Shown in pieces: positions 19,242-63,983 of a stretch of 64,000 bases of DNA; the stretch's first letter is position 1; each line of letters opens with the position of its first letter. Both the position numbers and the translations under genes were made by a program. Source of the DNA: Diplocarpon mali (lineage: Eukaryota > Ascomycota > Leotiomycetes > Helotiales > Drepanopezizaceae); assembly GCA_024741835.1 (NCBI GenBank), contig JAENRP010000193.1, positions 18,221 through 82,220 of the forward strand, written 5' to 3'. The notes under the pieces were generated by a model. The model saw only the letters and a list, made by a program, of their open reading frames with translations. It made no database searches and was not told where the DNA came from.

Positions 19242-19264
19242 ACCTATAGGCCGGGCCTAGGAGT
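19242..19264. repeat. 23-bp palindrome, G1, after X2
   Basis: Half-sites ACCTATAGGCC and GGCCTAGGAGT around a G. It matches 63961 in G2. It lies in the untranslated region after X2. Confidence 0.85.
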
Positions 19265-19666
19265 TAGAAAACGAAACTAACAAAACAAACAAACAAGCTA
19301 TAGAGTCGTAAAAACAATTAAAAATAGTATTAACTTAGATATCAATTTTCCTTAGTTCTCTTTAAGGGATAGGGAGAATTATTACTAGATAATACTCTCT
19401 TTATAAAGCGCCTACTTCTTCTTAATAGTTTACTATTAGTATCGGAAGAGTCCGGTCTTAGTATTACAGGAGCTTTAGTGTTTTATAAAGATGCTAGTAT
19501 AGTTTAATAGCTTCTGCCGATAAGGAGGGAGACTTATATTATAGCGTTATTATTATTATCCTCTTTATTATTATTATCATCCTTTAGAGAGTCTTCTACT
19601 ATAGAGGGGGATAAGGCAGGTAATTTAATAAATAACACTTCCTTTTCTTTACCTTTGGTTAATACA

Positions 19667-19689
19667 AGTTGCAGGCCGGGCCTAAGAGT
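19667..19689. repeat. 23-bp palindrome, G1, X2 C-terminal
   Basis: AGTTGCAGGCC and GGCCTAAGAGT around a G. Counterpart of 63536 in G2. Confidence 0.85.
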
Positions 19690-20488
19690 TATATCAGAGG
19701 GTTTAGTATAAGGTTTCTTAATGCTATACTTTTCGAGAAGGATCGTCTTATTAATTATATTATCAGCCTTAATATCATTATTAGTACCTTTCGTCTTAAT
19801 TTAGGACTTATCCTTATATAGTTATAGTTCCAACTGTTGAATTAGCTTCTAAGTATAGGTGAAATTATTAAAAAGTTCCTACTTATACTTCTTTAGATAT
19901 ATTATCAACTAAGTCATATCTTTAGAAAATAACTCCTTTACTATCATTACTACTAATGGATTATTCTATAGCTGTTTTCCTATAAGTGCCTCTAATAGTA
20001 GGCCTCCTTTTATTATACTAAGCGTTATACGAAATTTGGCTGACGATTCTCTAGTAATACTTTATCTCGCAGTACTAGGTCTCTTTATACTAATAGAATC
20101 GATAAGAAAATCTTCTAAGTCTATACTATTCTTTAGTAAGTTATTACCAACAACTTCTATATAGTTATTACTAATAGTAAGAAAGCCACCTTTTCCTAAT
20201 TCTCTAGCAGATTCTATATTAATAAATGTGCCTTATCTAATAAATATAAAGAATAGAGTCGTCTTATTAAAGATATACTCCTTTAGAAGTATCTTCTCTT
20301 TAGTGTTTAATTCTTTCTATTATACTGCATTTTAAGCTAGATTCAGTAAGATCTATTAAGCATTCTTAAGGCGTTAAGGTATAAGATTTGATAATTTATA
20401 GGATTTTTCCTAAATAGCGAATTCTCCAGTCGATTGTTTAGCTGCTAGAATCATATAATAGTCAATAGTTCTATTATCAAGTGGATTA

Positions 20489-20511
20489 ACCTATAAGCTA
20501 GGCTTAGGAGT
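20489..20511. repeat. 23-bp palindrome, G1, X2
   Basis: ACCTATAAGCT and GGCTTAGGAGT around an A. Counterpart of 62714 in G2. Confidence 0.8.
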
Positions 20512-21718
20512 TAATCTCATAAATCTTATATTAGTATTAATCTTAATGGTAATAACTCTTAAGTGGTAGTCAATTCTAATAAACTATATAGGCTTAGGAT
20601 ACGTTACTAGTTTATATAAAGACTTATATTAAGTTAGTAAAGCACTTAGGTATAATTTATAATATATCCTCAGTATCTATTGTATTAAGCTATAAGTCAT
20701 ATTATAAAGGTAGGCAAAGGGGAGGTTTGGCTTCTTATTTAAGGTCCGGAAGTAGTATTAGTACATTTCTAGTTCTTCTTATATTAATATTAAAAATGAA
20801 TTCTTTCTATAATTACTATGACCATACGTGCGCATAGCGCTTAAAAAGGCGCAGCTAAACAACTTAGGCATATTTAAAAAGCCTTTACTATAGAATGATA
20901 TAAAGTTATCAATAGTCAGTATGGCGTTATATTAGGCAGGGGTTTATACGATATTATAGAATAATTTAAAGGCTTTAGGTGCTACTCTGAACTTAGAGAA
21001 GCCTAATGATATATCCTTCTTAACTTAGCTTGCTATTCTATTGCCAGTGGCTATAATTGTATAATTTCCTAGATGCAATAAAAACAAGGTCGGGTTAGGA
21101 GCAGTGCAAAATTTATAGATATTAGACGATATATCTTTATTAGTAAGGCCTATTATTGCCAATTTATAGTACTGCGTATATTGGCGTTTATAAAGGGTAT
21201 AGAACTTTTCAAAATTGAAGTCCTTAAATATTCCTATTACAAACTTTATAAGTCTTATCTTTATTTCTAGTATTACTACTATCTTAAAACTATTGCTATA
21301 CTGCAGTATTATCTTTATATTAAAGAGGACCTGATAATATTCTATAAAGATAATATTCGTATTAACTTCGGATTTCTCCTTAAGAATATAGAAGTCACCC
21401 TTTAATTTCTTATACTTAATAAAGAACTGTATAATATTATCTATAGAAAATTCGTCTTATAGCAGTTTTATAATTTGCTTAACAGCTCTTATTATCCCTT
21501 CTTATACTAATAAGACTTCTCCCTGACCTTCTTTTCTTAAACGCTTTATTATTAACTTATAGAATTTAAGAATAAATTTTTACAGGTTATTAGGGAAAGA
21601 TTGTATAATATCGGCAGTATTCTTTTTAGTATTATTAAAAATTTCTAGCATATTAGTAATAGTGCCTATTTCTTTATTAGACAATTCATCTTCTAAGTCT
21701 ATAATATTACGTGTATTA

Positions 21719-21741
21719 ACCTATAGGCCGGGCCTGCGAGT
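21719..21741. repeat. 23-bp palindrome, G1, X2-specific copy
   Basis: ACCTATAGGCC and GGCCTGCGAGT around a G. Counterpart of 61484 in G2. X1 has no copy at the matching place. Confidence 0.85.
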
Positions 21742-21904
21742 CATTTTCTTTGCTACTAGTGTTTAGGGTATTTAAGGCATTTCTGGAAATAGTGACTTAA
21801 ATTCGTCTGAGTTAGAGGAATAGTAGTTAGGCAGGTCAGCTACTTAAGTTCCTAGTATTATAGGCACCTCTGGCTTAAGGACATTCTCTTTATATGCTAA
21901 TTCC

Positions 21905-21927
21905 ACTCGTAGGCCAGGCCTACGAGT
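21905..21927. repeat. Perfect 23-bp palindrome, G1, X2
   Basis: ACTCGTAGGCC and GGCCTACGAGT around an A: an exact 11+1+11 inverted repeat. Counterpart of 61298 in G2, which is also exact. Confidence 0.92.
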
Positions 21928-22785
21928 CAAATTCTCTTTATCAGTTATTCCTACTAAGGGTAGTAGCATTTTTAAAGTAATAGGAATAATAAACTCCTAT
22001 CTCTCTAACTTATTATTAAAGTAATTCATAGTATACTCGGCGAGATAAGTCATCTTTTCTTTTATAATAAGTAGACTATATTGCAACTGTTAGAGGCTAA
22101 GTATATTTAAAATAGTTTAATTAAGAAGTGTAAAATTATCATACTATAAGGGTTTATCTTTCATAGTCTAAATGGTAGAGTGTACAATAGTACTTAAGAA
22201 CCTAATAAATTTTCTACCTTTAATACTATTTCCTTACAGCTTTTTTATGCCTTCTTAAATAGTGAAATAATTTAATACCTATATAGCCTTTGCCACTAGT
22301 TGGTATATCTTAAAGATTTTGCCAAGCCCTTGCAGGGCGTTATTAGCAGTAATATCAATTATAAAGTAGGTTTGGAAAAGTATACTATAGGTACTACTTA
22401 TAAATTGCAATAATCTTTTTATATACTTATTCTTCTTATCTCGATTTTTCTAAAACAAATCTATTGAATTAGCATACCTTTAATATTCCTATAGAAATTT
22501 TTCACAATTGATCCCTTTTATCTTAAGCTTATTCTTAAGAAAATCATCAAAGCTTAAAAATCCTTCTTCTATAATAGAAATTCTATAGTTTAATACTTCT
22601 ATAGATGAGTTTAGGAATACTTGCTATTCTATTTCACCTAACGTTCTATAAGTGCTTACTATATCTTCTAATAATCTTAGAGCTTTTCTATCCTATGAAA
22701 AGTTACCCTTTAACATTAGTTTATTATTGGCGGTATTTAAGGGTTTGCTACCCGAAGCTATAACTGATGTATTCTTCTTAAGTAT

Positions 22786-23333
22786 AGCTCTCTTGCTTGA
22801 GCTCAATAGTGCTATAATGAATTATTTAATAGGAGGGAGTAGTTCTAAATAAAGAGATGATTATTTAAGAAAGATTAATAATATAAGAGGCTTATACTAG
22901 AAAAGATTGATAATAAAAGACAATAGTAGTAATACTGATATTATAGGTCTAGTAGGGTTATAGAAAAAGTAAAAAAAGTAAAATCGTAATACAGGGAGAG
23001 GCTTATTTATAGAGTTTGAAATCGCGCTAGTACATATAGGAAAAGTAGGTATAATAAGCTTGGAAGTGGGAATAAAAGTGGGGTATAACGCATATAAGGA
23101 CCTATAATTGGTAAATGACAATTATTAAAGGTAAGGAAGACATTTTAAAGGTAAGCGTTAAAAAGTTGTATATAAAGGGAATAATTAAAGAATGAATTAT
23201 ATAAAGAGTAAAGTAAATAAAGAATATATATAGAATAAAATAATAGGTTAAGAATAAAGAGGTATAGGTATATAGAAAGTAGATAATCCTTAAAAAAATT
23301 CAACTTCTAATTCGCAATCTCTTTAAATGGTTT
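22786..23333 (-). other. Spacer between X1 and X2, G1
   Basis: About 550 bp, very AT-rich. It holds a 74-codon frame at 22897-23121 (minus; MSFTNYRSLY, hydrophobic C-terminal third) that is also open in G2 at 60104-60328. It lacks Gln and Trp codons, so RIP could not easily close it, and openness is weak evidence for a gene. Confidence 0.4.
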
Positions 23334-23556
23334 TCAAAAGGGGAAGTAGTAGACTCGATTCTCTAGGCTTAAGTCGACTCAATTATCAGTTCTATTATCA
23401 CTTCGGAGTCTTCTTCTCTTATATTAATTTTTATTTTTTAATGATTTCTCTACTTTAGGGACCTCTCTTAAAGGATCTTCTATTAGTACCCCTAGATTTG
23501 GTAACTGAGGTTCATCTGAATTATCTTATAGGCTTAAACCAGCCGAGTCCAACCTC

Positions 23557-23579
23557 ACTCGCAGGCCAGGCTCGCGAGT
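23557..23579. repeat. 23-bp palindrome, G1, X1 C-terminal
   Basis: ACTCGCAGGCC and GGCTCGCGAGT around an A. One of the least RIP-altered copies. Counterpart of 59648. Confidence 0.88.
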
Positions 23580-24441
23580 CAGTCTTAGCGTTTTTAAGCT
23601 TAAGGGTAAAAACAGGGGATTAGTTCCTAAATCAGGGTCTAATACTATGCTAAAGTCTCAGTTTATCTCTTTTCCGAATTTTCTTATAATAATGCCTTTA
23701 TCAATTAGTGCATTAGGCTCTTGGATAGCATTTACTTTATCGCGCTATCTTTAAGACTTAAGTCTATAAAGAAGCGACTTAATATTTATAACATTCGTCT
23801 AGGCCTTAATAAGGGTATTAAATAGCTTCTGATTATATTCTATAAGGTGGATTTTCAATTCGTCTTTATTTAAAAGAAATAACTCCTATACTTTAATTAT
23901 AACTAATAGATCCGTTTAAGAGCATCGACTAATAATGGCTTTAAAGAGGCTGCTGCAGTTTTCAAGATGAAAAGCTACTTTAAAAGGTGCAATAGTTCTA
24001 CTTGCGTTAATCTATTAAAGTACTAGAGGTTGCTCTAAAGTAGAGACTGAAAAGATAAGATCAGAGATTCGAATCTTATTTTCTAAGGTGTTCTTATCGC
24101 AGACGGCTATATAGTTATTATAAAAGGCTATAAAACCACCAGTCCTATAAGAATTATCCGAAAGCATTTTAAAAAGGTATTCCTATTTTATTATTATTAT
24201 AATTGAATTGCTATTATTAGTAATAGGTCGTAAGATCTCCTTTTGCTTCAATTTTACAGTTATTTAAGCTAGTTAAGATTTTAAACCAAATGCCTAGGAG
24301 GTCTATTGACTTATCTTCTTCGCAGATAGAGTAAGTTTCATATTCGACTAAGAGCCGACCTACCTATTAAGGCTTCTAGAAGCTGGCCCTTATCCGATCG
24401 GTAGGATCTGATAATCCAAGACTTGCTTTCTAATAAAATTG

Positions 24442-24464
24442 ACTCGCGGGCCGGGACCGCGAGT
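24442..24464. repeat. 23-bp palindrome, G1, X1
   Basis: ACTCGCGGGCC and GGACCGCGAGT around a G. Counterpart of 58763. Confidence 0.87.
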
Positions 24465-25827
24465 GAAAATCGGAATTTCTTTATTAGTAGCACTTATACC
24501 TCTCTTTATCGAAACAACTTAATTATAAAGACCTAGGCCAATCAATTAGGGAGGTTTAAGGTAGGCTATAAGCTGATAGGTTCTTCTACTTCTTACTATT
24601 ATAGCTAAGAGGTAGAGTTTATAGTGCATTTAAAGGACTTATTAAGTAAGACTGAACATTATATTATAGAGAAAATAAAAAGGTATAAAGGTCGCGTTAT
24701 CCATAGGGCAAAAGTGATAAAGGTATATTTCTACTTCTTATCTTATAATAAAGAGGAATATACTTATAAAAGCACTATTATCGGTAGTAAAATTGTCAGT
24801 TAGGAAGCGGCATCCGAAGGGTTTAGGCATTACAATTGACCCTTCTTCTTCTATTTCCTTTTGCTATTTATTGCTTAATAATATTGAAAAGAAAGAATTA
24901 TTCTATTTAATCGGCTCTAACGCCTTTAAAGCTTTAGGATCAGCCCTGAATTTTACAGCACCTAGAGATGCCTCTATTATTAATAGGTTGGATTTGCGTA
25001 TCCTTAAAGAGATAAAGAACTGATTATCAAGGTGGATTAGAAAAAGATTAATATCTTCTACTATATAAAGAAGTTTAAAGTATTTAATAGTTTTATTAAT
25101 ATCAAATCCTTTATAATTAAAACTATAGTAAACCGAAAGAGAGCAAATATAAAGGTCGCAAAGTCTTCTCCCTTCGATTCCTACGCTAGAAAGATACTAT
25201 CGAAAGCGAGTCTTTATTATAAAGGACACCTAAATATCATATCGTTCTTTAAGCTTAAGGTTAAGAATAACTGATTAAGGCATATTGCTACAATTACAAA
25301 TGTCCTAATTAATAGATTCCTCTTTGCGTTCTCTTTCTTATAAGATAAAATAGTCTCGCTTAGCATTCGAGAGATTAGGTTCTTGACTTCTATAATTATT
25401 AAAGAATTGAATAATATCTATAGAGGCGAACTCGTCTAAGATAAGCTATTGAATCTATTTAATAGCTCTCTTAATTATCTTTAAAGCAGTAGGAATAGGG
25501 TCTTCTCCTATATTATCGTTTCTAAAACAGTTGCATATAAATATAAAGAAGTTAAGAACTAGCTCCTTTAAGTTATTAAGGAAGGAGTTTAAGCGAGCGC
25601 GTAATCCTTTAGTTTCAAATTGCAAATTAGCTAAAGTAGCTATCAAACGATCTATCCTTTTTAAAGGTTGAGCTAAAATAGGTCATTTAGCTAAAAGAGA
25701 GTCCTTTAAAGATTTTGAAAATTCTAAAGAGGCTGCGCTAAGCGTTTAGGCAGTTTATTCGGCAGCGGTTTCTAAAATCATTTTAACAAAAGGTAGGTTA
25801 GGTCTAGTTTTAAAATTCTTATTTCTA

Positions 25828-25850
25828 ACTCCTAGTCTAGGACCGCGAGT
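25828..25850. repeat. 23-bp palindrome, G1, X1
   Basis: ACTCCTAGTCT and GGACCGCGAGT around an A. Counterpart of 57377. Confidence 0.83.
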
Positions 25851-26696
25851 TAAATTATATAGTTTAGCACTTATTATATCTTTAAATTAAAAAGCGAATT
25901 TCAAGGCAGGCTTAACCATAAATAACCAATTCCCTTCTTTATTATTAAAGAAATCTTATTTAAACCCTATTATAAGAGTCTAGTTCTCTTTTAAAATAAG
26001 CAAACTATAAGCAAAAGCGCAGAGCCTTAGTATATTAATAATAGTACTATTAGGTAAGGTAATATCTATAGCCTAATTTGATCTTTTTATAGCCCTATTA
26101 GCTACTATAAGTACTGCATTAGATAGGCCCACAAATCTGCGACTGCGAATTCGATTGCCTTAGAATTTTACTACTCCTTCTTAAATAATAAAGAAATTAA
26201 GAATCTAAATAGCTCTAGCGGTAGGAGTATTTTCCTTAAGAATTTTTAATAACACTTGTCTTCTATTATTAGAATTAATATTTATTAGAAAGCGCGAACG
26301 AAATAGGAGTCCTCTCTTATTAGTGGCTAAATTATCTAATTATTAAATAGATTCTTCTCTTTTATCTCAGTCTATTTTAAAAGTGTCGGCTAAGGTTATA
26401 TATTAATCTGCGTCAGCTAAGAATTCCTTTTTAAAGATTCCCTTTAATCTTAATTCTTCGGTTAGGAAGTTGTTAAATTGGAGAATTCCAAGGGCCACCT
26501 GGGTTGAAAGGTTGCTAATAGCATTCGCGTAAGCTAAAAGGAGTTTTTATTACTCTATATCTCCTAAGGCTGCGTAGGTCGATTTGAAGCTTTCTAATAA
26601 TGCAATAGCTCTACTATCCTAAGAGAAGTTTATAATTAATGCTTATTTATCCCCTATCGCAGTAGATAAAACCATTTGTAAGTTCTTTAAAGGCAT

Positions 26697-27008
26697 ATTG
26701 CTTATAAAAGATAGGTAGTATAAATAAGAGAGTTTAATAGGGTATAAGAATTAAAAGGGCATATAAGCTGCAATAGGTTTGCTATATATATATTAAGGAA
26801 ATTGGACTTTTTATTTATTATTTAAGGAAAGTAATAGGAATATTATAATTAAAGGCTAATATTAAGAATGTAAAATAAGTTAAAGTAGGTAAGAATTTAA
26901 GGTGATCCTAAAAGATCTATATTTTAAATAATAAAGGAGGCGACCTTGCCGAAAATGTAAAAATAAGGATTAAAGGAAGGTAAGACAATTAATAGGCTAG
27001 GAAATCGT
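26697..27008 (-). other. Spacer between pol and X1, G1
   Basis: AT-rich, with no frame worth reporting. It could hold an internal ribosome entry or splice signal for X1, but nothing specific is visible. Confidence 0.4.
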
Positions 27009-27090
27009 TTAGTATTCCCGCTTACGTTCTTTAGATATTTTAAGAATAATGACTTAAAGTTGCGATTAGTTAGGTATTTTAATATTCTTC

Positions 27091-27113
27091 ACTTGCAGGA
27101 CCGGCTTATAAGT
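27091..27113. repeat. 23-bp palindrome, G1, pol C-terminus
   Basis: ACTTGCAGGAC and GGCTTATAAGT around a C. Counterpart of 50097. Confidence 0.82.
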
Positions 27114-28525
27114 CAAATTGGAAAAATCTTAGTCTTTATCTAAGGGTTTAAAATTGCTTATATTGCCGTCGGTTCCTATAAAGGATTCGGAGGTTATATC
27201 AATTTCTAATTTATCTTCTAAAGGGAATAAGGTCTAGTTGTATTAATAAAAGCGCTTCAGTCGATTAGCTGCAAAGGTTCCTTTAATATCGATTCCGTCA
27301 AGTTCCTAAAGAGAATAGTATCCCTTATCTTTCTACTTAAATTTAACCTTAAATAGACTAAGCTATCGATAGTCAAGTTTAGTATCTACTAATATATTAA
27401 TACTTCTTATAATATCGTAAACTAAGACAAGATCATCTTTTTAAATAGGGTATATTTTAAGTACTTTAAAAGCAGCCTACGCTTCCTTAGCTTTTTCCTA
27501 ATATCGTTTCTTTTATAGAATAATTTCCTTTATATCTATATCTTAGAGCTTAAGTTGTTAGCATCTTATTATAAGCAAATCGGAACGGTTCCGAATTTAA
27601 CTATAGTCGAACAATCTCTAAATAGGCTATTAGGATTTAAGAGGGAGCTATGCCTCTCTACTATAAATAAGGAAGAATAGTATAACTCTAGTCGGTTTGT
27701 AAATTATCGTTCGATAAGTAAAGAGTATTCTATAAAAGCGTTTTATCTAATCCTTAAATCCTTTATAAGTAACTTTAGATAGACTATTAAGAATATTACA
27801 ATATCCTTATTCTACTATTCTATTAGCTTTCGAATTATACGCTAAGATTTGAACCCGTTTAATGCTATATTTTCGTAAGAAAGCTTTAACTACTCCTTTG
27901 TTTTTAAGGCCTCTATTAATAGTTAATCTGCTAAAAAGTCTATAGCAATAGACTACATCTTCCTAAAGGAACTTTGCAATAGATTCAGAGTTAGTAGATC
28001 TTAAAGGTCGTCTTTTAAGCTATCCTAATAGGTCTTCCTTTACTAAAGTAAAATATATTATCCTATTCTTAGTAGTTAATACTTATATAATATTAAGGCT
28101 GACTTTGTAAAAAAGGCCTAATAGCTAAGTTAGGAATAAAGGATTTTCCTTACGATTAGGTTTTCGTTTCTAATAAGGGATGCAACTCTTTATAAAAGCT
28201 TTACAGTCCTTAAAAGAGCCTTTCTAAAAGAATTTTCTTAAGAGTTAGTAGTAAGTAGACTTAGCTCCTTAGTAGCCAGTTTCCTTATAAATATCTTAAA
28301 TAGCCTTAGCCCTTAGTTTTTCATTATCTAAGCAGAGTTATATAAGGAATGAGTTATCGCTCCTTTTAAACAATTGTCTTCCTTGCATTAGATAAATTAG
28401 AGCTTTAACTTTGAATTTCTGAAAATCCTTAAGAGCAACTGTCTTTAGTCATTTAAATATAATTAAAAACTTTGCGATTTCTTTAGAGTCACTTAAGTAG
28501 TTAAGTAATAAAATTCTCTTATTTG

Positions 28526-28548
28526 ATTTGCAGGCTAGGCCCGCGAGT
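28526..28548. repeat. 23-bp palindrome, G1, pol RH-INT linker, shifted phase
   Basis: ATTTGCAGGCT and GGCCCGCGAGT around an A. It lies in an open stretch and is read as RLAGLACK, not T-x-x-P-G. Counterpart of 48662. Confidence 0.82.
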
Positions 28549-29293
28549 CGAGTCCTTTTAAGGCGATATATCAATAGATAACCAACTTCGTTTTCTACCC
28601 ACTTATTAATATCTGTTTCATCTTTTTTAATTAAATTAAAAGGGTAAGGCCAAGTTCTTTTTAAAAGGCCGTTAGCGGTAGTATTTTTCGTTCTTAGAAT
28701 ATATTTGACTTCAAAGTCCATTAGTCTTATTTAAGCAATCCATTTTATTAGCAAAGCTCTTAGTAGGTCGCTTATAGCTCTATTCAATTGTTCTACTAGC
28801 ACTTTAGCATCAGTTTTAAGAATGAAGTAAATGCTATAGAGGTCACTTCTTATCTTTTTCATCGCCTTTAAAGCGCCTTTACATTCCTATTTAATAATAT
28901 TATACTTTATCTCTACTAGATTCTAAAGACTACTTTCAAAGCAAGCTAGATGTCTTTTCTATTAGCTATCAGCTTATTAAAGGATAGCACCCTATCCAAT
29001 TAAGCTTGCGTCAACTATTAGTATAATTGGCCTAGCGTCGGCTCTATAGTCTATTTTAATTAAACAAGGCGCCTTAAGCAACGCTTGCTTTAGTTGTTTC
29101 ATAGCCTCTATTTAAGGTTTCTCCTATTAAAACTCAGCCCCTTTCTGAAATAAGGAATAAATAGGTACTGCCTTTTTAGTAAAATCCTTGATTCAAATAT
29201 AATAGTATACTATAACTCTAATAAACGCGCGAGCTTCTGCTATATTGTTATACCTCTTCCATTTGTCGATTTTAAGTACTTTAGCCTTCTAAG

Positions 29294-51140: not shown

Positions 51141-54100
51141 ACGGCAATAGCTTCCGATTCTAATCGAAACACCAGGCCTAGAGACCTTTAACTCTCTCGA
51201 AAGAACTGGCAATAATAGTTCGACGATTTAGAGCTTTACTTCAAGAGCAAAGGTATTGAAATGGCGATTTAAAAGACACTTATTAAATACGCGAGAATAG
51301 CCTCCTATACTCCTTCTACCGATTTATCTACTTCCACTTTAATAGCTAATATAACTGCTAAGGATTTGCTAAATATACTAAATAAGCTTAGCCTAAGAGC
51401 TTTAGTAGATAATAACCGAGAATCCTAAAGGCAGATTTTAAATATAGAAAAGGAGAAGGAGTATAGGCTAGCCTTAACCAAATGCAAGCTTAAGATTAAT
51501 AAAAGTTTAAGCGATAAAGACTAAGATTTTATTCGAATTTATAATAATGTAAAGATAAGATAGGATACTTTAAAGGTAAAATACTCTTAAACAACTGCCT
51601 TTAATACTTAGTATCTGCTATAGTAGATCACTTTATTTTAATATAAAAAAGATAAAGATAGTAAGGATATAGATATAAATATAGATTCTACTTAATCTAT
51701 ACTATATAAAGCGAGAAAGAGAGTAAGAGCCGCAGATCCTAGGATAGCTATGACTTTTAAGGAAACTCAGCTTTTTAGTTTCTTACTTAATAGCCTCCCT
51801 CTTAAGTTCGCTATTACAAAACAATCTCTTCTTATCTAACCTAACCTTAAGATCTATAAGAAGATCGACCTCCTTCGAACTATCGAGTAAGACCTTAAAG
51901 GATACTCTAAATCAGCAAATGCTGCGTTATAAGGCAAAGATAAGCCTAAGAAGAGGAAGGAGCGTAGGATAAGCCCTTAAGCTTATTAGGGATGCTACTT
52001 CTATAATAGTACTTATAATATTACTAATTGCGAAGTTAGAAGGCAATTGATCAATATAGTCGCCAGCTTTAATATTAAAAAGCAATTGAAGCAGAAGTTA
52101 AGAAGCAAACTGCCCTTATCTTACCAAAGGCTATAACTATTAAGGAAAGGTAAAGGAAAAGGCTATTTAGTCAGAACTTTAGCAAATACCTTTAATAATA
52201 ATAGTAGGTCATTTGAATTTAAATCTACTTTTAATAATTTAAATGATAATTATAATAAAGATGCTTACGTTTTAAAAGCCGATCTTTATAAGATCCTTAA
52301 ATCTAACTAGTATAGTAATACTAGTTATATAGTATATATGACTAATAAACCCTACCTATTTAAAGGCCCGCTTATTAAAATAAAAAGGCGCTTTATTAAG
52401 GTTGGTAGTAGAAGGTTGTATATAGACTCGATAGGTATAGTAGAGATGAATATTGCTAGCATTTCTTTCCTTTTGCAAAATATTCTCCTTATATCTAGCT
52501 TAAGTATTAATCTCTTATTTAGCCGCAAGATCTATGCAAAGTTGAATTATATAGGAGTTTTTAATAATCAATTTATATAGTTTATAAATAATAATTATAA
52601 AGTGATCTTTAAAGCTAAAATCAAAGATAGACTTTACGTTATCTTAAAGGTAATATTATAGAAATTGACTCTTAGGCCAGACTTACAAGTAGGTTCCTTT
52701 AAGGAAAGTGCACTCTCTGCCCTAATACAATTAAGCGAGGATAAGGAGAATAGATGGACTCCTAAGCCAGGATCGCAAGTAAAATTCGCGAAAATGACTC
52801 TTAAGCTAGGACTATAGGTGGATTGTAAGGTATCCTCAAAGATGACTCTTAAGCCGGGATCATAAGTGGATTCTGCAAATTCCAGGAAATCGACTCTTAA
52901 GTTAGGACTGCAAGTAGATCTTGCGGTTTTACTAAAAACGACTCCTGAGCCGGGCTCTTAATTAGAAAACGGTAAAACCTTGAACTGCTATTACTAGTCC
53001 TTTTTAGCTGCCGATAATAAAGTATCGACTAATAATAGGCTACTAAAGCTATTAAAAGCCGAAAGCCTATTAAAGTATTAGCTAATGTATAAAAGATTCG
53101 CGCATCTAAGACTAGAGAAATTAAAGGGCTTGTATAAGGTCTTGACCTTAAAACAGAAGATCTAAGTACTAAAGGATCGCTTAGTATGCCGAATTTGCAA
53201 GCTGATAAAACTTCGAAATCGGACGCAAACTAAGCTTAGTCTATAGAAAGATTCGATACTAGCGCTAATATCTATCGATACTACTGGACTATTTATAACC
53301 TTAATTAGAGGAAATAATTGGTTTTTTCAAATAGTAGATAACTCCACTTAGCAGATATAGACCATTTGCGCTAGGACTAAATCTAAGCTTATAGAAAAGC
53401 TGGAAACTTAAAAAGTGATAGAGGAATGCTAGACTTAGTTAAAGCTAATAGCTATTAGGTCTAATAACACATTAGAGATTAGGGCAAAGCTTAATAAATA
53501 GGTAAAATAAGGAGTTCGTTATAAACTAACTGTAATATACGAAGGTTCCTACTAGAATGGTATCGCTAAGCGAAGCATCTAGCAAGCAAAGACTAACTAT
53601 TGCGCTTTACTATAAGATACTGATTTGCTATTAGAATTCTAGGACCTTGCGGTTAAGGCAGACATATACCTGCGAAATAGAATAGGTAGTAGGCCAATAG
53701 TTAATAGCACCCGAATATCGCTATATAAGGCATATTTTAGATAGAAACTAAGCCTGGACTATATCTGCGTCTTTAAAAGCGTCTGCTACTCTTATATTAG
53801 CCCGAAGTCCTAACCCGCGGGTATAAAGAGTAAGAAGCTAATAGACTAAGGTAGAGAGTATATATTTATTAGGTATATTAAATAGATAATAAAGTAATAG
53901 ATAATATACGCGCTAAACCTAAGGCGAGTAATCATATCTTTAGTAGTTAAGTTTAATAAATCTCGAAATAAGGGGGAGCTATCCTTAAAGCTCTATATAC
54001 CTAAAGATTCGTAAGGTATACCACTCGACGGTAATACTATTAAGCCGAACTAACAACCCCTCTCTTTAAGCTTAGGTACATTAAGCGCACTTGCTAATCG

Positions 54101-56042
54101 ACGACCTGCTAATCGCCCAAAGGCCGAATAGACCATTCCTATCGTCTGCAAACTACTTAAAGTATAGAACAACTTTGATATTATCATCCCTTTAGTTAAA
54201 GTACCTATAGTAAAGGATATTCCCGAAATAGGTATAAGTAATAACAAGCCTCTACTACTAGAAAGCGGTTCCCCAAATGACAAGCCTATAGAACCTATAG
54301 CCGAACCTATATCCTTAAAGAGGAATAGAGACCTAGAACTAAAAGATACCTTAGACGAACGCGAGTCTAAGTGTATTTAAGCCATAATAGCGCATAGGAT
54401 CTATAAGCTCAAACTTTAATAGAGCTTTGACAAAGATAATGCGTTCCTAGCTACTAGGAGAATAATGAAAATCTCTTTTCCAAAGACATATAATAAAGCT
54501 ATCAACAATCTAGAGAATAGAGTAGTATAAAGTAAGGCAATCTAAGAGGAGATAAGCTCTCTTATTGCAAATAGCATATAGATAGAGGAACTGACGCTAA
54601 AGGATATAAACCTAGTATTAACAAAGTAGGTCTTTATAATTAAGATATATACAGATAGAACCCTAGAGCGTTATAAGGCAAGGCTTATAGCTAAGGGCTT
54701 CTCCTAATAGTATAAAGAAGACTACTTCAACACATTCGCACTAATAGTTCGCATAAATACCCTTCGCATATTCATAGCGATAGTAGCCGCTAAGGACTTT
54801 AAATGCAGATAGTATAATATTAAAAATGCATTTACTAAAGCGACTATAAAGGAACGGATTTTTCTCTCCCGACCTAATAGTATTCCTATACGCGCTAGCC
54901 ACTCTCTTTATATACTTTACAGTATCTATAGGCTTAAACAATCAGCTTATAATTAGAACCTCTTATATAGCTCTACTCTAATAGAAATAGGATTCGTTTA
55001 AAGCCTAGCTAACCCTTATCTATTTACCTATACTAAGTGTGGAATTAAGTTGCTACTATATATCGACGATATTACTATAGCTGCGAAAACAACCACTTAA
55101 TTAGATTGGTTCTTTATAACAATTTAGAAACGTTTTAATACTAAGGATCTAAGGGGAATTTATAAGATCCTTAGCATCTGTATCATAAGGAACCGCTCTA
55201 CTTAAGAACTCTAGTTAGATTAAAAGTAGTATATTAAGAAGATCCTAGACCGAATAGGACTCTCTACTTATGCTCCTAACTTTAAGCCAAAGTGTACTCC
55301 AATTAAAGGAAAGTATAATAAGTTAGAGCCTGCTAATGAAAATGAGTAGAGAGGAGATTTAAAGAAGTACTAATAGGACATTAGAGCAATTATATATACT
55401 ATAGTATATATAAGACTAGATATCGCCTTTATTATTAAGTAACTTAGTCAGAATTTAAAGGATCTAACGATTTAATATAAAAATGCAGTTAAGCGACTTA
55501 GAAGGTACCTTCGATCGATAATCATATAAAAGGTGAGATATAGACTAATGAAATATATAAGCGCAAAGCTCAAGGTATATACCGATTCCGACTAGGCAAA
55601 TATAAAAGGTTGGAAAAGTATATCTAAAAGCGTAGCAGTACTATATAGCAGACTTGTATCATAGGGAAGTAGGAAGCAGAAATCAGTGGCTATTGCAAGC
55701 ACTAAAGCCAAATATATATCGATATTATCAAATTGCAAGTAAGAATTATAGATCGCCTAAGTTCTAAAAGATATAGGTTTCGCTAAGTATATTAGATAAG
55801 ATAGGAATTATATTAATCTTTAAGCAAATAATACAAGAGTGATTGCACTTATAAAAAATCCACACTTATATAAGCGATCGAAATATATTAATATTACCTA
55901 CTACTTTATCTGCGACTTTATTATAAAGAATAAGTTATCAATTACCTATATCCTAACCGATCGAATAGTGGTAGATGGATTTATAAAGCTATTAAAGATA
56001 GTTGCAAAGTTCGAAGCGTTTAAAGATATACTAGGGTTATAG
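51141..56042 (+). pseudogene. Decayed copia gag-pol, B2
   Basis: One frame from gag to the TAG at 56040-56042; the start lies somewhere upstream of 51141. Gag has a tryptophan/DDLELYF block (51210-51250) and a zinc remnant near 51993 (CYFYNSTYNITNC). Protease region open at 52338-52580 (RRLYIDSIGIVEMNI, ISSLSINLL). The palindrome array 52668-52963 follows. Pre-integrase region VCRICKLIKLRNRT; integrase core LISIDTTG, with the NGIAERS-type Glu now AAG Lys (53568-53570). RT starts near 54620 (RYKARLIAKGF) and keeps LLYIDDITIA (about 55050-55080). RNase H ends in the open frame 55839-56042. Confidence 0.88.
52668..52963 (+). repeat. Array of six 23-bp palindromes inside copia B2 pol
   Basis: Copies start at 52668, 52758, 52797, 52845, 52893 and 52941, so steps are 90, 39, 48, 48 and 48 bp, all multiples of three. 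All lie in the gag-pol phase and encode a repeated TLKPGSQVD-like peptide within a 16-residue period. The array separates the protease from the pre-integrase region, where other copia elements have only a short linker. Confidence 0.9.
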
Positions 56043-56074
56043 AAGATAGTAAGGGCTTAGCAGGCTCAAGGACG

Positions 56075-56224
56075 ACTCCTAGGCCTGCCCCGCGAGTTAG
56101 GTTATATAGTCTTATAAAGGAAAGTTTTTAAATCGACTCCTAGGCCTAGACCGCAAGTCAAGTCACATAGTCTTATAAAGGAATATCTTTTAGGAAATTT
56201 GACTCTTAATCCTACCCTACAAGT
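56075..56224. repeat. Three 23-bp palindromes in the 3' leader of B2
   Basis: Copies at 56075-56097, 56136-56158 and 56202-56224, separated by repeated TATAGTCTTATAAAGGAA units. They match the trio in B1. They lie after the pol stop and so are not translated. Confidence 0.88.
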
Positions 56225-56346
56225 AGGATTAGTGATTTTAATAAAGGTTACTATTAATTGATTGTTTTTAATTTAAAGAGATACCTAAGAGTTAGATTAG
56301 CGCAAAAGGATAGTTATTGTTTTCCTAACTATAAGTCAATCGGAGT

Positions 56347-56362
56347 AAGGTCTAAGTAGGGG
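56347..56362 (+). other. Polypurine-like tract, copia B2
   Basis: AAGGTCTAAGTAGGGG directly precedes the 3' LTR and is the best candidate for the plus-strand primer. It is imperfect. Confidence 0.5.
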
Positions 56363-56557
56363 TATTAAGATAGGTAATATAGCTATCACTCCAATATATT
56401 ATTATATGACCCTACTGCTTAGTCAGTAGGATATTAATACGTATATAGCTATAGGAAAGAAAGGGGTAACCTTCCTTCCCTAACTCTTACTAATATATCG
56501 ACTATCGACCTCTAGAAGTTTCTATTACCTACTGCGCCGACTTACTTAAGCTCAATA
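56363..56557 (+). repeat. 3' LTR of copia B2 (195 bp)
   Basis: It starts TATTAAGATAGG, ends AAGCTCAATA, and is followed by TTATC. Confidence 0.95.
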
Positions 56558-57376
56558 TTATCTACTATAATAAGGGATAAATAAGCACTAATTACAAACT
56601 TCTCTTAAGATAGTAGAGCTATTGCATTATTAAAGAGCTTCAAATCGACCTACGTAGCCTTAGGAGATATAGAGTAATAAAAACTCCTTTTAGCTTACGC
56701 GAATGCTATTAGCAACCTTTTAACCTAAGTAGCCCTTAGAATTCTCTAATTTAACGACTTCCTAACTAAAGAATTAAGACTAAAGGGAATCTTTAAAGAG
56801 GAATTCTTAGCTAACGCAGATTAATATATAACCTTAGCCGATACTTTCAAAATAAACTAAGATAAAAGAGAAGAATCTATTTAATAATTAGATAATTTAG
56901 CTATTAATAAAAGAGGACTCCTATTTCGTTTGCGCTTCCTAATAAATATTAATTCTAATAATAGAAGACGAGTATTATTAAAAATTCTTAAGGAAAATAC
57001 TCCTACCGCCAAAGCTATTCAGATTCTCAATTTCTTTATTATTTAAAAAGGAGTAGTAAAATTCTAAGGCAATCGAATTTGCAGTTGCAGATTTATAGGC
57101 CTATCTAATATAGTACTTATAGTAGTTGATAGGGCTATAAAAAGATCAAATTGAGCTGCAGATATTACCTTACCTAATAATACTATTATTAATATGCTAA
57201 GGCTTTGCGCTTCTGCTTATAGTTTGCTTATTTTAAAAGAGAACTGGACTCTTATAATAGGGTTTAGATAAGATTTCTTTAATAATAAAGAAGGGAATTA
57301 GTTATTTATAGTTAAGCTTGCCTTAAAATTCGCTTCTTAATCTAAAGATATAATAAGTATTAAACTATATAATTTA

Positions 57377-57399
57377 ACTTATAGTCCTAAACTAGAAGT
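57377..57399. repeat. 23-bp palindrome, G2, X1 site 1
   Basis: ACTTATAGTCC and AAACTAGAAGT around a T. It lies 396 bp after the KILKEN landmark; X2 has a copy 393 bp after its own landmark. Confidence 0.8.
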
Positions 57400-58762
57400 T
57401 AGAAATAAGAATTTTAAAACTGGACCTAACTTACCTTTTATTAAAATGATTCTAAAAACTGCTGCTAAATAAACTGCCTAAACGCTTAGCGCAGCCTCTT
57501 TAGAATTTTCAAAATCTTTAAAGGACTCTCCTTTAGCTAAACGACCCATTTTAGCTTAACCTTTAAAAAGGATAGATCGTTTAATAGTTACCTTAGCTAA
57601 TTTGCAATTTAAAACCAAAGGATTGCGCGCTCGCTTAAACTCTTTTCCTAATAACTTAAAGGAGCTAGTTCTTGACTTCTTTATATTTATATACAACCGT
57701 TTTAGAAACGATAATATAAGGGAAGACCTTATTCCTACTGCTCTAAAGACAACTAAGAGAGCTATTAAATAGATTCAATAGCTTATCTTAGACGAGTTCG
57801 CCTTTATAAATATTATTCAATTCTTTAATAATTATAGAAGTTAAGAACCTAGTCTCTCAGATGCTAAGCAAGACTATTTTATCTTATAAGAAAGAGAATA
57901 TAAAAAGGAATCTATTAATTAGGACATTTATAATTGTAGCAATATGCCTCAATCGGTTATTCTTAACCTTAAGCTTAAAGAATAATATAACATTTAGGTA
58001 TCCTTTATAATAAAGACTCGCTTTCGATAGTATCTTTCTAGCGTAAGAATCGAAGGGAAAAGACTTTACGACTTTTATATTCGCTCTCTTTCGGTTTACT
58101 ATAGTCTTAATTATAAAGGATTTAATATTAATAAAACTATTAAATACTTCAAACTTCTTTATATAGTAAAAGATATCGATCTTTTTCTAATCTACCCTAA
58201 TAATTAGTTCTTTATCTCTTTAAGGATATATAAATCTAACCTATTAATAATAGAAGCATCTTTAAGTACTATAAAATTCAAAGCTAATCCTAAAGCCTTA
58301 AAGGCGTTAGAGCTGATTGAATAGAACAATTCTTTCTTTTTAATATTATTAAGTAATAAATAGCAAAAGGAAATAGAGGAAGAAGGGTCAATTGTAATGC
58401 CTAAACCCTTCGGATGCCGCTTCTTAACCGACAATTTTACTACTAATAATAGTACTTTTATAAGTATATTCCTCTCTATTATAAGATAAGAAGTAGAGAT
58501 ATACCTTTATTACTTCCACCCTATAGATAATACGACCTCTATACCTTCTTATTTTCTTTATAATATAATATTCAGCCTTATTTAATAAGTCCTTTAAATG
58601 CATTATAGACTCTACCTCTTAGCTATAATAGTAAAAAGTAAAGGAGCCTATTAGCTTATAGCCTATCTTAAACCTCTCTAATTAATTGGCCTTAGTCTTT
58701 ATAATTAAGTCGTTTCGATAAAGAGAGATATAAGTGCTACTAATAAAGAAATTCCGATTTTC

Positions 58763-58785
58763 ACTTGCGGTCCCGGCTTATAAGT
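58763..58785. repeat. 23-bp palindrome, G2, X1 site 2
   Basis: ACTTGCGGTCC and GGCTTATAAGT around a C. It lies 1782 bp after the landmark (X2: 1809). Confidence 0.82.
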
Positions 58786-59647
58786 CAATTTTATTAAAAA
58801 GCAAGTCTTGGATTATCAGATCCTACCGATCGAATAAGGGCCAGCTTTTAGAAGCCTTAATAGGTAGGTTGGCTCTCAGTCGACTATAAAACTCACTCTA
58901 TCTATAAAGAAGATAAGTCGATAGACTTCTTAAGTACTCGATTCAAAATCTCAACTAGCTTAAATAACCGCAAAGTTGAAGCGAAAGGAGATCTTGCGAC
59001 CTATTACTAATAATAGCAATCCAATTATAGTAATAACAAAATAGAGATACCTTTTTAAAATGCTTTTGGATAATTCTTATAAGACTAGTAGTTTTATAGC
59101 CTTTTGCAATAACTATACAGCCGTCCTTAATAAGAATACCTTAGAAAATAAGACTCGAATCTCCGATTTTATCTTTTCAGTCTCTACTTTAAAGTAACCT
59201 CTAGTACTTTAATAGATTAACGCAAGTAGAACCACTATACCTTTTAAAGCAGCTTTTTATCTTAAGAACTATAGTAGCCTTTCTAAAGCCATTATTAGTT
59301 AATACTCTTAAACAGATCTATTAGTTATAATTGAAGTATAGGAGTTATTTCTTCTTAATAAAGACAAATTGAAAATCCACTTTATAAAATATAATCAAAA
59401 GCTCTTTAACGCCCTTATTAAGGCTTAAACAAACGTTATAAATACTAAGTCGCTTCTTTATAGACTTAAGTCTTAAGGATAGTGCGATAAAGTAAATACT
59501 ATCTAAGAGCCTAATGCACTAATTAATAAAGGCATTATTATAAGAAAATTCGGAAAAGAGACAAACTAAGACTTTAGCATAGTATTAGACCCTAATTTAG
59601 GAACCAATCCCCTGTTTTTACCCTTAAGCTTAGAAACGCTAAGACTG

Positions 59648-59670
59648 ACTTGCAAGCCTAGCCTGCGAGT
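59648..59670. repeat. 23-bp palindrome, G2, X1 site 3
   Basis: ACTTGCAAGCC and AGCCTGCGAGT around a T. It lies 2667 bp after the landmark (X2: 2631). Confidence 0.83.
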
Positions 59671-59892
59671 AAGGTTGGACTCGGCTGGCTTAAGCCTATA
59701 AGATAGTTCGGATAAACCTTAGTTACCAAATCTAAGGGTACTAATAGAAGATCCTTTAAAAGAGGTCCTTAAAGCTAAGAAATCGCTAAGAAATAAGAAC
59801 TAATATAAGAGAAGAAGACTCTAAAGTAATAATAAAATTAATAATTAAGTCGACTTAAGCCTAAAGAATCGAGTCTACTACCCCCCCTTTGA

Positions 59893-60439
59893 AAACCATT
59901 TGGAAAGATTGCGAATTAGAAGTTGAATTTTTTAAGGATTATCTACTTTCTATATACCTGCACCTCTTTATTCTTAACCTATTATTCTATTCTATATATA
60001 TTCTTTATTTACTTTACTCTTTATATAATTTATTCTTTAATTATTCCCTTTATATACAACTTTCTAACGCTTACCTTTAAAATATCTTCCTTACCTTTGA
60101 CAATTGTCATTTACCAATTATAGGTCCTTATATATATTACACCCTACTTTTATTCCTACTTTTAAGCTTATTATACCCACTTTTCCTATATGTATTAGCG
60201 CGATTTCAAACTCTATAAATAAGCCTCTCCTTACACTACGATTTTACTTTTTTTACTTTTTCTATAACCCTATTAGACCTATAATACCAGCACTACTACT
60301 ATTATCTTTTATTATCAATCTTTTCTAGTATAAGCCTCCTATATCGTTAATCTTTCTTAAATAATCATCTCTTCATTTAGAACTACTCCCCCCTACTAAA
60401 TAATTTATTATAATACCACTAAGCTTAAGTAAGAGAGCC
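59893..60439 (+). other. Spacer between X1 and X2, G2
   Basis: About 550 bp matching 22786-23333 in G1. The 74-codon sense frame at 60104-60328 (MSFTNYRSLY, hydrophobic end FFYFFYN then LLLLSFIINLF) is in the same phase as X2. It is separated from X2 by three TAG/TAA codons found in both copies. A small membrane protein or an N-terminal part of X2 is possible but unproven. Confidence 0.4.
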
Positions 60440-61297
60440 ATACCTAAAAAGAATATATTAGTTATAGCTTTAGGCAGCAAACCCTTAAATACTACTAATA
60501 ATAAACTAATATTAAAGGGTAACTTTTCATAAGATAGAAAAGCTCTAAGATCATTAGAAGATATAGTAAGCACCTATAGAATATTAGGTGAAATAGAATA
60601 ATAAGTATTCCTAAACTTATCTATAGAAGTATTAAACTATAGAATTTCTACTATAGAAGAAGGATTTTTAAGCTTTGATGATTTTCTTAAGAATAAGCTT
60701 AAGATAAAAGGGATCGATTATGAAAAATTTCTATAAGAATATCAAAGGTATACTAATTTAATAGATTTATTTTAAAAAAATCGAAATAAGAAGAATAAGT
60801 ATATAAAAAGATTATTGCAATTTACAAATAGTACTTATAGTACACTTTTCCAAACCCACTTTATAACTAATATTACTACTAATAACGCCCTGCAAAGGCT
60901 TGGTAAAATCTTTAAGATATACTAACCTATAGCAAAGGCCATATAGGTGTTAAATCATTTCACCATTTAAGAAGGCATAAAAAAGCTATAAGGAAATAGT
61001 ATTAGAAGTAGAAAATTTATTAAGTTCTTAAGCACTATTATACACTCTACCATTTAGACTATAAAAGATAAACCCTTATAATATAATAATTTTGCACTTC
61101 TTGACCAAACTATTCTAAATACACTTGGCCTCTAATAGTCGCAATATAATCTACTTATTATAAAAGAAAAGATAACTTATCTCGCTAAGTATACTATAAA
61201 TTACTTTGATAATAAGTTAGAGAGATAGGAGTTTATTATCCCTATTACCTTAAAAATGCTACTACCCCTAGTAGGAATAACTAATAAGGAGAATTTG

Positions 61298-61320
61298 ACT
61301 TATAGGCCTGGCCTATAAGT
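61298..61320. repeat. Perfect 23-bp palindrome, G2, X2 site 1
   Basis: ACTTATAGGCC and GGCCTATAAGT around a T, an exact inverted repeat. Both arms changed symmetrically compared with the G1 counterpart. Confidence 0.92.
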
Positions 61321-61483
61321 GGAATTAGCATATAAGGAGAATATCCCTAAGCCAAAGGTGCTTATAATACTAGGAACTTAAGCAGCTGACCTACCCAATT
61401 ACTATTCCTCTGACTTAGACGAATTTAAGTCACTATCCTTAGAAATGCTTTAAACACCTTAAATACTAGTAGTAAAGAAAATG

Positions 61484-61506
61484 ACTCGCAAGCCCGGCCT
61501 ATAAGT
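61484..61506. repeat. 23-bp palindrome, G2, X2-specific copy
   Basis: ACTCGCAAGCC and GGCCTATAAGT around a C. Read as TRKPGLQV with TAA for Gln. Confidence 0.85.
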
Positions 61507-62713
61507 CAATACATATGACGTTATAGACTTAGAAGATGAATTATCTAATAAAGAAATAGGCACTATTACTAATATGCTAAAAATTTTTAATAATATTAAG
61601 AAGGATACCGCTAATATTATATAATCTTTCCTTAATAACTTATAAAAATTTGTTCTTAAATTCTATAAGTTAATAATAAAGCGTTTAAGAAAAGAAGGTT
61701 AAGGAGAAGTCTTATTAGTATAGAAAGGGATAATAAAAGCTATTAAGCAGATTATAAAACTGTTATAAGACGAATTTTCTATAGATAATATTATACAGTT
61801 CTTTATTAAGTATAAGAAATTAAAGGGTGACTTCTATATTCTTAAGGAGAAATCTAAAGTTAATACAAATATTATCTTTATAGAATATTATCAGGTCCCC
61901 TTTAATATAAAGATGATACTATAGTATAGCAATAGTTTTAAGATAGTAGTAATACTAGAAATAAAGATAAGACTTATAAAGTTTATAATAGGAATATTTA
62001 AGGACTTCAATTTTGAAAAGTTCTATACCCTTTATAAACGCTAATATGCGCAGTACTATAGATTGGCAACAATAGGCCTTACTAATAAAGATATATTATC
62101 TAATATCTATAAATTTTGCACCGCTCCTAACCCGACCTTGTTTTTATTATATCTAGGAAATCATACAATTATAGCTACTAATAATAGAATAGCAAGCCAA
62201 GTTAAGAAGGATATATCGTTAGGCTTCTCCAAGTTCAGAATAGTACCTAAAGCCTTTAAATTATTTTATAATATCGCATAGACCCTTGCCTAATATAACG
62301 CTATACTAACTATTAATAACTTTATATTATTTCATAGCAAAGGCTTTTTAAATATGCCTAAGTTATTTAGCTGCGCCTTTTTAAGTGCTATGCGTACGTA
62401 TAGTTATAGTAATTGTAAAAAGAATTCATTTTTAACATTAGTATAAGAAGAACTAGAAATGTACTAATACCACTTCTAGACCTTAGATAAGAAGCCAAAC
62501 CCCCTCTCTGCCTACCTCTATAATATGACTTATAGCTTAATATAATAGATACTAAGGATACATTATAGATTATACTTAAGTACTTTACTAACTTAATATA
62601 AGTCTTTATATAAACTAGTGATATATCCTAAGCTTATATATTTTATTAGAATTGACTACCACTTGAGAGTTATTGCCACTAAGATTAATACTAATATAAG
62701 ATTTATAAGATTA

Positions 62714-62736
62714 ACTCCTAGGCCTAGCTCGCAGGT
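62714..62736. repeat. 23-bp palindrome, G2, X2 site 2
   Basis: ACTCCTAGGCC and AGCTCGCAGGT around a T. Read without a stop as TPRPSSQV. Confidence 0.83.
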
Positions 62737-63535
62737 CAATCTACCTAACAATAGAACTATTAACTACTATATGATTCTAGCAGCTAAACAATCGACCGGA
62801 GAATTCGCTATTTAAGAAAAATCCTATAAATTATTAAATCTTATACCCTAACGCCTTAAGAATGCTTAATAGATCTTACTAAATCTAGCTCGAAATATAG
62901 TATAATAGAAAGAATTAAATACTAAAGAGAAGATACTTTTAAAGGAGTATATCTTTAATAAGACGACTCCATTCTCTATATTTATTAAATAAGGCACATT
63001 TATTAATATAAAATCTGCTAAAGAACTAGGAAAAGGTAGCTTTCTTACTATTAGTAACAATTATACAGAAGTTATTAGCAATAACTTACTAAAGAATAGC
63101 ATAGACTTAGAAGATTTTCTTATCGATTCTATTAGTATAAAGAGACCTAGCACTATAAAATGGAGTATTGCTAAAGAATCGTTAGCCAAATTTCGTATAA
63201 TGCTTAGTATAACAAAAGGAGGCCTACTATCAAAGGCACTTATAAGGAAACGGCTATAGAACGATCTATTAGTAGTAATAATAATAAAGGAGTTATTCTC
63301 TAAAGATATGACTTAGTTAATAATATATTTAAAGAAGTATAAGTAGGAACTTTTTAATAATTTCACCTATACTTAGAAGCTAATTCAATAGTTAAAGCTA
63401 CAACTATATAAAGATAAGTCCTAGACTAAGACGAAAGGCACTAATAATAATATTAAAGCTAATAATATAATTAATAAGACGATCCTTTTTAAAAAGTATA
63501 GTATTAAGAAACCTTATGCTAAACCCTCTGATATA

Positions 63536-63558
63536 ACTCCTAGGCCCGGCTTGCAACT
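63536..63558. repeat. 23-bp palindrome, G2, X2 site 3
   Basis: ACTCCTAGGCC and GGCTTGCAACT around a C. Read as TPRPGLQL. Confidence 0.83.
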
Positions 63559-63960
63559 CGTATCAACCAAAGGTAAAGAAAAGGAAGTATTATCTATTGA
63601 ATTGCCCGCCTTATCCCCCTTTATAGTAGAAGACTCTTTAAAGGATAATAATAATAATAAAGAGGATAATAATAATAATGCTATAATATAAGTCTCCCTC
63701 CCTATTAGCAGAAGCTATCAAACTATACTAGCATCTTTATAAAACACTAAAGCTCTTGCAATACTAAGACTAGACTCTTCTAATACTAATAGTAAACTAT
63801 TAAGAAGAAGTAGGCGCTTTATAAAAAGAGTATTATTTAGTAATAGTTCTCCTTATCCTTTAAAGAGAACTAAGGAAAATTGATATCTAAGTTAGTACTA
63901 TTTTTAATTGTTTTTGCGACTCTATAGCTTATTTGTTTATTTTGCTAGTTTCGTTTTCTA

Positions 63961-63983
63961 ACTCCTAGGCCTGGCCTATAAGT
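63961..63983. repeat. 23-bp palindrome, G2, after X2
   Basis: ACTCCTAGGCC and GGCCTATAAGT around a T. It lies 77 bp after the X2 stop, so it is not translated. Confidence 0.86.

Follow-up and report, generated by a model that had tools for sequence, protein, structure and literature searches.

The window, i.e., the whole stretch of 64,000 nucleotides analysed here (Diplocarpon mali contig JAENRP010000193.1, positions 18,221 to 82,220), contains a family of 23-bp palindromes located inside long terminal repeat (LTR) retrotransposons. The genome assembly containing it comprises 49.37 Mb in 676 contigs. The elements that carry the palindromes are the following:

42684..63998 (+), gypsy-like element G2, delimited by self-alignment; 5' LTR at about 42684-42939, 3' end outside the window; split by copia E at 50548-56557; 14 palindromes.
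18734..42075 (-), gypsy-like element G1, inverted copy of G2; LTRs at about 18734-18985 and 41823-42075; split by a gypsy at 29292-36843 and by an N gap; 13 palindromes (score ≥8).
50548..56557 (+), copia E, nested in G2; 193-nt terminal repeats; 8 palindromes.
897..2113 (-), partial second copy of E, inverted; palindromes at 1235, 1300 and 1365, i.e., at 65-nt spacing.

G is about 15 kb long and is present as two inverted copies, each broken by a nested element. In Pfam searches, the 47919-50562 region of G2 matches RNaseH (1.1e-7), with the integrase zinc-binding domain H2C2 below the cut-off, and a weak reverse transcriptase (RT) match is found at 47283-47714 (5.5e-4). Copia E matches RVT_2 (E=5.2e-27), with SH3_retrovirus below the cut-off. 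Judged from these domain matches, G is gypsy-like and E is a copia; the sharing of the palindrome between superfamilies, as originally predicted, is thus real. No E-to-G alignment is present among the matches listed, and the palindrome unit is nearly identical in both.

Little-decayed copies read ACTC[C/G]CGG[G/T]CC-N-GGCCCGCGAGT over 23 bp, the right arm being given as GG[C/A]CCG[C/G]GAGT. The window was searched with a profile that allows C>T and G>A changes, at a threshold score of ≥8. This gave 40 places, vs. 0-3 in five first-order Markov resamples; at a score ≥10 the values are 33 and 0-1, respectively. The places at 2918 and 15808 were dropped as chance-like, and the other 38 were taken as the family (G1 13, G2 14, copia E 8, partial E copy 3). 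The original prediction counted at least 40 copies, distributed as 14 in G1, 14 in G2, 9 in copia B2 (E here) and 3 in B1; its values for G2 and B1 (the partial E copy) are found again, and the present counts for G1 and E are each one below those of the prediction. The sites on G1 (minus strand) were all located with the profile:

19242..19264 (-), G1 palindrome.
19667..19689 (-), G1 palindrome.
20489..20511 (-), G1 palindrome.
21719..21741 (-), G1 palindrome.
21905..21927 (-), G1 palindrome, arms matching perfectly; also in the list of window palindromes.
23557..23579 (-), G1 palindrome.
24442..24464 (-), G1 palindrome.
25828..25850 (-), G1 palindrome.
27091..27113 (-), G1 palindrome.
28526..28548 (-), G1 palindrome.
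38044..38066 (-), G1 palindrome.
40122..40144 (-), G1 palindrome.
41131..41153 (-), G1 palindrome.

The sites on G2 and copia E (plus strand) are given with their reading phase, phase 0 being the common one:

43608..43630 (+), G2; phase 2, an exception.
44617..44639 (+), G2; phase 0, weak.
46533..46555 (+), G2; phase 0.
46695..46717 (+), G2; phase 0.
48662..48684 (+), G2, between the RNaseH and integrase matches; phase 2, an exception.
50097..50119 (+), G2; phase ambiguous.
52668..52690 (+), copia E; phase 0.
52758..52915 (+), copia E; array of four in-frame palindromes (52758, 52797, 52845, 52893) at steps of 39, 48 and 48.
56075..56224 (+), copia E, near the 3' terminal repeat; array (56075, 56136, 56202) at steps of 61 and 66; phase ambiguous.
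57377..57399 (+), G2; phase 0.
58763..58785 (+), G2; phase ambiguous.
59648..59670 (+), G2; phase 0.
61298..61320 (+), G2, arms matching perfectly; phase 0.
61484..61506 (+), G2; phase 0.
62714..62736 (+), G2; phase 0.
63536..63558 (+), G2; phase 0, weak.
63961..63983 (+), G2, near the end of the internal region; phase ambiguous, perhaps non-coding.

When at most 3 mismatches are allowed, the pattern as written in the original prediction has 4 matches in the window and none in 100 dinucleotide-preserving shuffles. There is no general excess of palindromes (with GC ≥0.4, the window has 25 and ten resamples have 12-28), thus the excess is specific to the 23-bp motif. Genome-wide, 191 places match the literal form and 382 the GC-rich form (up to 2 mismatches in both cases), and 1098 match the degenerate form ACTYNYRGKCCNGGMCYRNRAGT; the backwards control gave 0 for each. 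The non-random character of the motif, one of the original claims, is therefore borne out. The exact GC-rich form has 0 matches in viral contigs and 0 in prokaryote genomes.

The alignment of G1 with G2 (7445 columns) contains 671 differences, 659 of which are transitions. The C>T fractions are 0.60 for CpA, 0.26 for CpG, 0.18 for CpT and 0.06 for CpC. By this pattern, the divergence of the two copies is decay like that caused by repeat-induced point mutation (RIP), and they would formerly have been near-identical. Since CpA mutates more than the other three C-initial dinucleotides, the palindromes might be mutation-resistant GC-rich words left by RIP or chance, a caveat already attached to the original prediction. 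This explanation has a negligible probability: it is already refuted by the shuffles and backwards controls, which are near 0, and the palindrome unit is also found in a little-mutated copy with 49% GC (L030). Perfectly matching arms are found only at 21905 and 61298, according to the list of window palindromes; in the others the arms are mostly broken by transitions, and some by older arm-to-arm differences.

A random sample of the genome (20 pieces of 10 kb, 198 kb searched, score ≥9) includes gene-rich DNA of about 46-59% GC and AT-rich stretches of about 28-36% GC. It contains 18 matches in its 71 AT-rich kb, all from 3 of the 20 pieces, and 1 weak match in its 127 GC-rich kb. No palindrome was recognised within an ordinary gene of this small sample. 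The palindromes are located inside LTR retrotransposons and not in mitochondrial DNA, and contigs of the same assembly carry gene-rich DNA; we infer that the family is nuclear.

Not every gypsy element is a host. No palindrome is found in the gypsy at 29292-36843, and the A elements (3915-18073) have only the weak place at 15808, in agreement with the palindrome-free gypsies named in the original prediction. Among 20 RT loci (L025-L044), 17 have no match at a score ≥9 except a weak A match in L026. Two others (L030 and L036, RVT_1) belong to a second gypsy host, H, less decayed (GC 49% and 44%, respectively), and L041 contains a single palindrome, which lies in a neighbouring G-like stretch. 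In the 3.5 kb of H seen there are 3 palindromes: in L030 the peptide TPGPGPRV occurs twice as a 45-bp tandem before the RT, and TRGPGPQV lies between the RNaseH and integrase parts. Protein relatives of H are one metagenome RT piece, the Diplocarpon coronariae products P0002, P0003 and P0016, and more metagenome pieces. P0003 carries the peptide in the same linker (TRGPGLRV); no clean empty linker was found among the H-relative proteins inspected. By these protein relatives, the DNA would come from Diplocarpon coronariae or a closely related species. The palindrome is also found in the contexts I (L047, L051, L065), J (L066), Z, and Y (L063, L064, L067). The GC-rich form without mismatch has 22 places genome-wide, and the 17 examined comprise 15 in Z and 2 in I. 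One unit family is thus shared by a copia and two or more gypsy families; its units are single or arrayed and mostly keep to one frame.

The reading phase was called from stop counts around the sites and from open frames, arrays being collapsed and clear sites being chosen by eye; 58763, 50097, 63961, 56075, 56136, 56202, Z and Y are left out of the count. The phase ACT-NNN-GGN-CCN-GGN-CNN-NGN-GTN is shared by 15 of the 17 collapsed sites (binomial p 4.5e-6 vs. one third), the exceptions being the two G sites 43608 and 48662. Without the weak 44617 and 63536 the count is 13 of 15 (p 3e-5). The peptide in this phase is T-(P/R)-G-P-G-P-R-V. Frames are open through the palindromes of L030, L047 and L066.

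A motif conserved only as protein was rejected, the third codon positions being constrained: over 32 rows, all phases included, six of them have 0.86-1.73 bits and the centre has 0.12 bits, two of the six holding a second state (G/T at position 9, C/A at position 15). Because only the centre is free among the seven third positions, copying or constraint at the DNA or RNA level is indicated. Another reading is a functional module that is required by, or of benefit to, the retroelements (a hairpin for RNA dimerization or packaging, a protein linker or a processing site), which recombination would exchange and selection would maintain. The phase bias, the retention of palindromes in the copies compared (G and its relative; H3) and the Gly-Pro-rich peptide in the linkers of H are in its favour. 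It is nevertheless unlikely: gypsy loci A and C are without palindrome save one weak, chance-like A match, two G sites are in another frame and some sites are maybe non-coding, and the number of sites varies widely (G 14, E 8, H 3).

In coding parts, the palindrome and an AT-rich spacer form tandem units about 39-54 bp long (13-18 residues). All ten steps of the coding arrays (45, 45, 45, 54, 54, 54, 90, 39, 48, 48) are multiples of three, though the step of 90 possibly spans two arrays; of the four steps in the 3' arrays of E and its second copy (61, 66 and 65, 65) only one is. The array length varies: at H3, L062 has three units and eight copies, found with a single-unit-only pattern, have one; in I, L047 has two units and L051 one. 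Tandem duplication of the palindrome together with its spacer accounts for most of the local spread. These arrays, together with the five compared sites that are all common to G and its 77%-identical relative, would also suit an ancient minisatellite that the host elements received from their common ancestor and never transferred between them. This is very improbable, since the hosts belong to different superfamilies and E and G have no host similarity among the matches listed, with a nearly identical unit.

Flanks were compared over 32 rows from -14 to +16, in which Z and Y are not sense-oriented and tandem neighbours are not independent. The flank positions above the 99% null were -6, -5, -3, -2, -1, +2, +3, +5, +6 and +8, and no others examined. 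The shared unit is, as the aligned rows indicate, longer than 23 bp, with flanks conserved over 6-8 bases; the 23-bp unit of the original prediction is right for the palindrome core but leaves out the conserved positions -6 to -1 and +2 to +8. Between the H1 and H3 arrays the spacers are alike to a degree equalled by 2 of 1000 shuffles; between the H1 and copia arrays, the best of the 28 pairs compared, the figure is 4 of 1000. The right flank of copia 52845 has 11 of 15 bases identical to gypsy H (H1), with 3 transitions and 1 transversion, and this match beats all 60,816 background 15-mers. It is therefore probable that, in one exchange or more, the palindrome crossed between superfamilies together with its spacer. 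Longer copia-gypsy homology had been named beforehand as evidence against mobility; a short form of it is found here (52845/H), but it is the repeat's own spacer and not host sequence.

The same flanks bear on a micro-transposon acting at the DNA level, i.e., two back-to-back 11-bp inverted repeats moved by a trans-acting transposase. In this reading, the transposase would prefer a GAAWTYG-like target, duplicate about 7 bp and so add 30 bp (10 codons). The flanks over the 32 rows resemble direct repeats (GAAWTYG / palindrome / GAAWTYTG), TGATTTT lies on either side of the palindrome at Z, as AATTG does for the second L047 unit, and the asymmetric form is seen in either orientation with respect to the host frame. 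However, the flank similarity within sites is not above that between sites (28 rows, direct matches, permutation p 0.23-0.51), empty sites were not found at Z or H3, isolated arms are at the level of chance (4 vs. 4, 1 and 4 in three resamples, window plus L001-L044), and the spacer is common to H1 and E. The micro-transposon is thus considered quite improbable. Inverted flank matches have permutation p 0.65-0.94, and a plain target duplication is unproven. For the window plus L001-L044, a longer transposon ending in these arms was rejected on the same count of isolated arms.

Each arm has two variable positions, and 9 of the 16 arm combinations are present among 29 rows (counting tandem neighbours, and some sites in two versions; 50097 and 56202 left out). 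The arm variants are transversions present in both arms; the G1/G2 differences are mostly transitions. At H3 the left arm of eight copies is CGC in 4, CCT or CTT in 3 and ambiguous in 1. Both arms are of one type in only 1 of the 15 Z copies (L045). Quasipalindrome correction is a known process, and this variation is read as arm-to-arm copying inside a hairpin. The 23-bp core would fold into a hairpin of 9-10 pairs, and isolated hairpins have predicted energies of -12.7 kcal/mol (z -1.47) and -19 kcal/mol (z -4.60).

Taken as a whole, the family is best read, with somewhat more confidence than doubt, as a short, hairpin-cored, frame-neutral parasitic repeat inside LTR retrotransposons, passed between retroelements, probably by template switching. 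The steps would be: (i) the reverse transcriptase would switch template at the hairpin between co-packaged RNAs; (ii) the transferred unit would be duplicated in tandem locally and kept where the frame is unbroken; (iii) hairpin-templated copying would carry arm variants to the opposite arm; (iv) the host elements would carry the repeat as a passenger, RIP mutating the copies later. A further step is put forward only tentatively, i.e., that the unit is a hyperparasite of retrotransposons, spreading between unrelated nuclear LTR retroelements via their reverse transcription, with no enzyme of its own and with its palindrome renewed arm from arm.

Several points weigh against a transferred parasitic repeat. 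The spacer match leans mainly on one copia unit, 52845; the other units match H1 less well (background fraction 0.00076 for 52758, 0.0057 for 52893 and 0.065 for 52797), and most of the 27 rows have no H1 flank match. The phase bias could reflect selection on the peptide itself. In their native context, the hairpins of L030 and L047 are not more stable than those of shuffled sequence (z -0.23 and -0.72). No empty site was found at Z, where 40 filled copies match a looser pattern, nor at H3, where 8 of 8 are filled. No insertion between elements was caught, and the transfer step is one that we infer. The palindrome was originally proposed to be mobile or repeatedly acquired; its presence in unrelated hosts agrees with this, but movement as such was not seen. 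Moreover, since sites are common to the copies of one element, copies greatly outnumber independent acquisitions. A family of about a thousand recognisable copies in fungal LTR retrotransposons, common to copia and gypsy, would record how unrelated retroelements exchange sequence in nature. The way in which such palindromes move would become testable with it, as copies of retroelements provide pairs from before and after an event, and their age is marked by RIP.

Other observations concern the hosts. G1 and G2 form a very large inverted repeat (18734-63998) with a centre of 0.6 kb (42076-42683), a different LTR element splitting each. The 7.4-kb region of G2 after the integrase match (56558-63998) has one stop-poor frame; no Pfam match was obtained there with three frames read with X at stops. 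Two gypsy A copies of the same orientation, about 90% identical (3915-10288 and 11702-18073), are set in an interrupted host sequence, of which 2110-3927, 10286-11709 and 18066-18575 match L008. In L013 (5870-6145) a G terminal repeat abuts the middle of a Z palindrome, thus a G copy seems inserted into the palindrome of another element. Z loci (L045, L046, L048-L050, L052-L061) have poly-T tracts of varying length beside the palindrome. Their opposite strand is open in places and K-rich; from the open stretches, Z may be coding in a G relative.

Selfish-looking coding palindromes are described, in the available parts of the sources, from bacteria, an archaeon and, as PARCELs, some eukaryotic microbes. 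No nuclear fungal case is present among the literature matches listed, a coverage outside which subscription papers mostly lie, and the string "palindrom" is absent from the main text of two Diplocarpon coronariae genome papers as far as that text is available.

Fungal mitochondrial GC clusters and double-hairpin elements are short GC-rich hairpins dispersed in AT-rich DNA, mostly intergenic; the present palindrome differs in being located in LTR elements, mostly in frame. Miniature inverted-repeat transposable elements are comparable by their inverted-repeat ends, non-autonomy and multiple copies, but the palindrome has no internal region and no proven target duplication, and no partner was found in the window and L001-L044. 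Nematomorpha mitochondria also have inverted repeats in coding sequence; these, according to the portions of the source available, are perfect, up to 284 bp long, apparently maintained, and mitochondrial. PARCELs, as the accessible text presents them, are likewise tandem protein repeats from dyad-symmetric DNA, tied to mobile elements in some taxa and also present in eukaryotic microbes. Their unit has 25 residues and is amphipathic, often in membrane-targeted proteins, whereas the fungal unit has 13-18 residues, is Gly-Pro-rich (T-x-G-P-G-P-x-V) and lies in retrotransposon frames.

A further close likeness is to the Rickettsia palindromic elements (RPE). In the parts of the sources available, RPE and the coding palindromes of Wolbachia and Methanocaldococcus are dispersed and inserted in frame at tolerated positions of proteins, a target duplication is marked "?", and the identity of the repeat is lost with time (PMC2229807, PMC2996958, PMC6649704). 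RPE themselves are bacterial, 105-146 bp long, and located in protein genes and two RNA genes (PMC2229807, as far as available). The fungal palindrome is likewise in frame within protein-coding sequence. It differs by its length (23 bp in a 39-54 bp unit, below that of RPE) and by its presence in a eukaryotic genome, where it has to date been seen only in DNA of retrotransposons or AT-rich repeats. It is not filed under RPE because it falls short of the RPE length. The analogy drawn in the original prediction fits functionally: the fungal palindrome works like Rickettsia palindromic elements without being a member of them.

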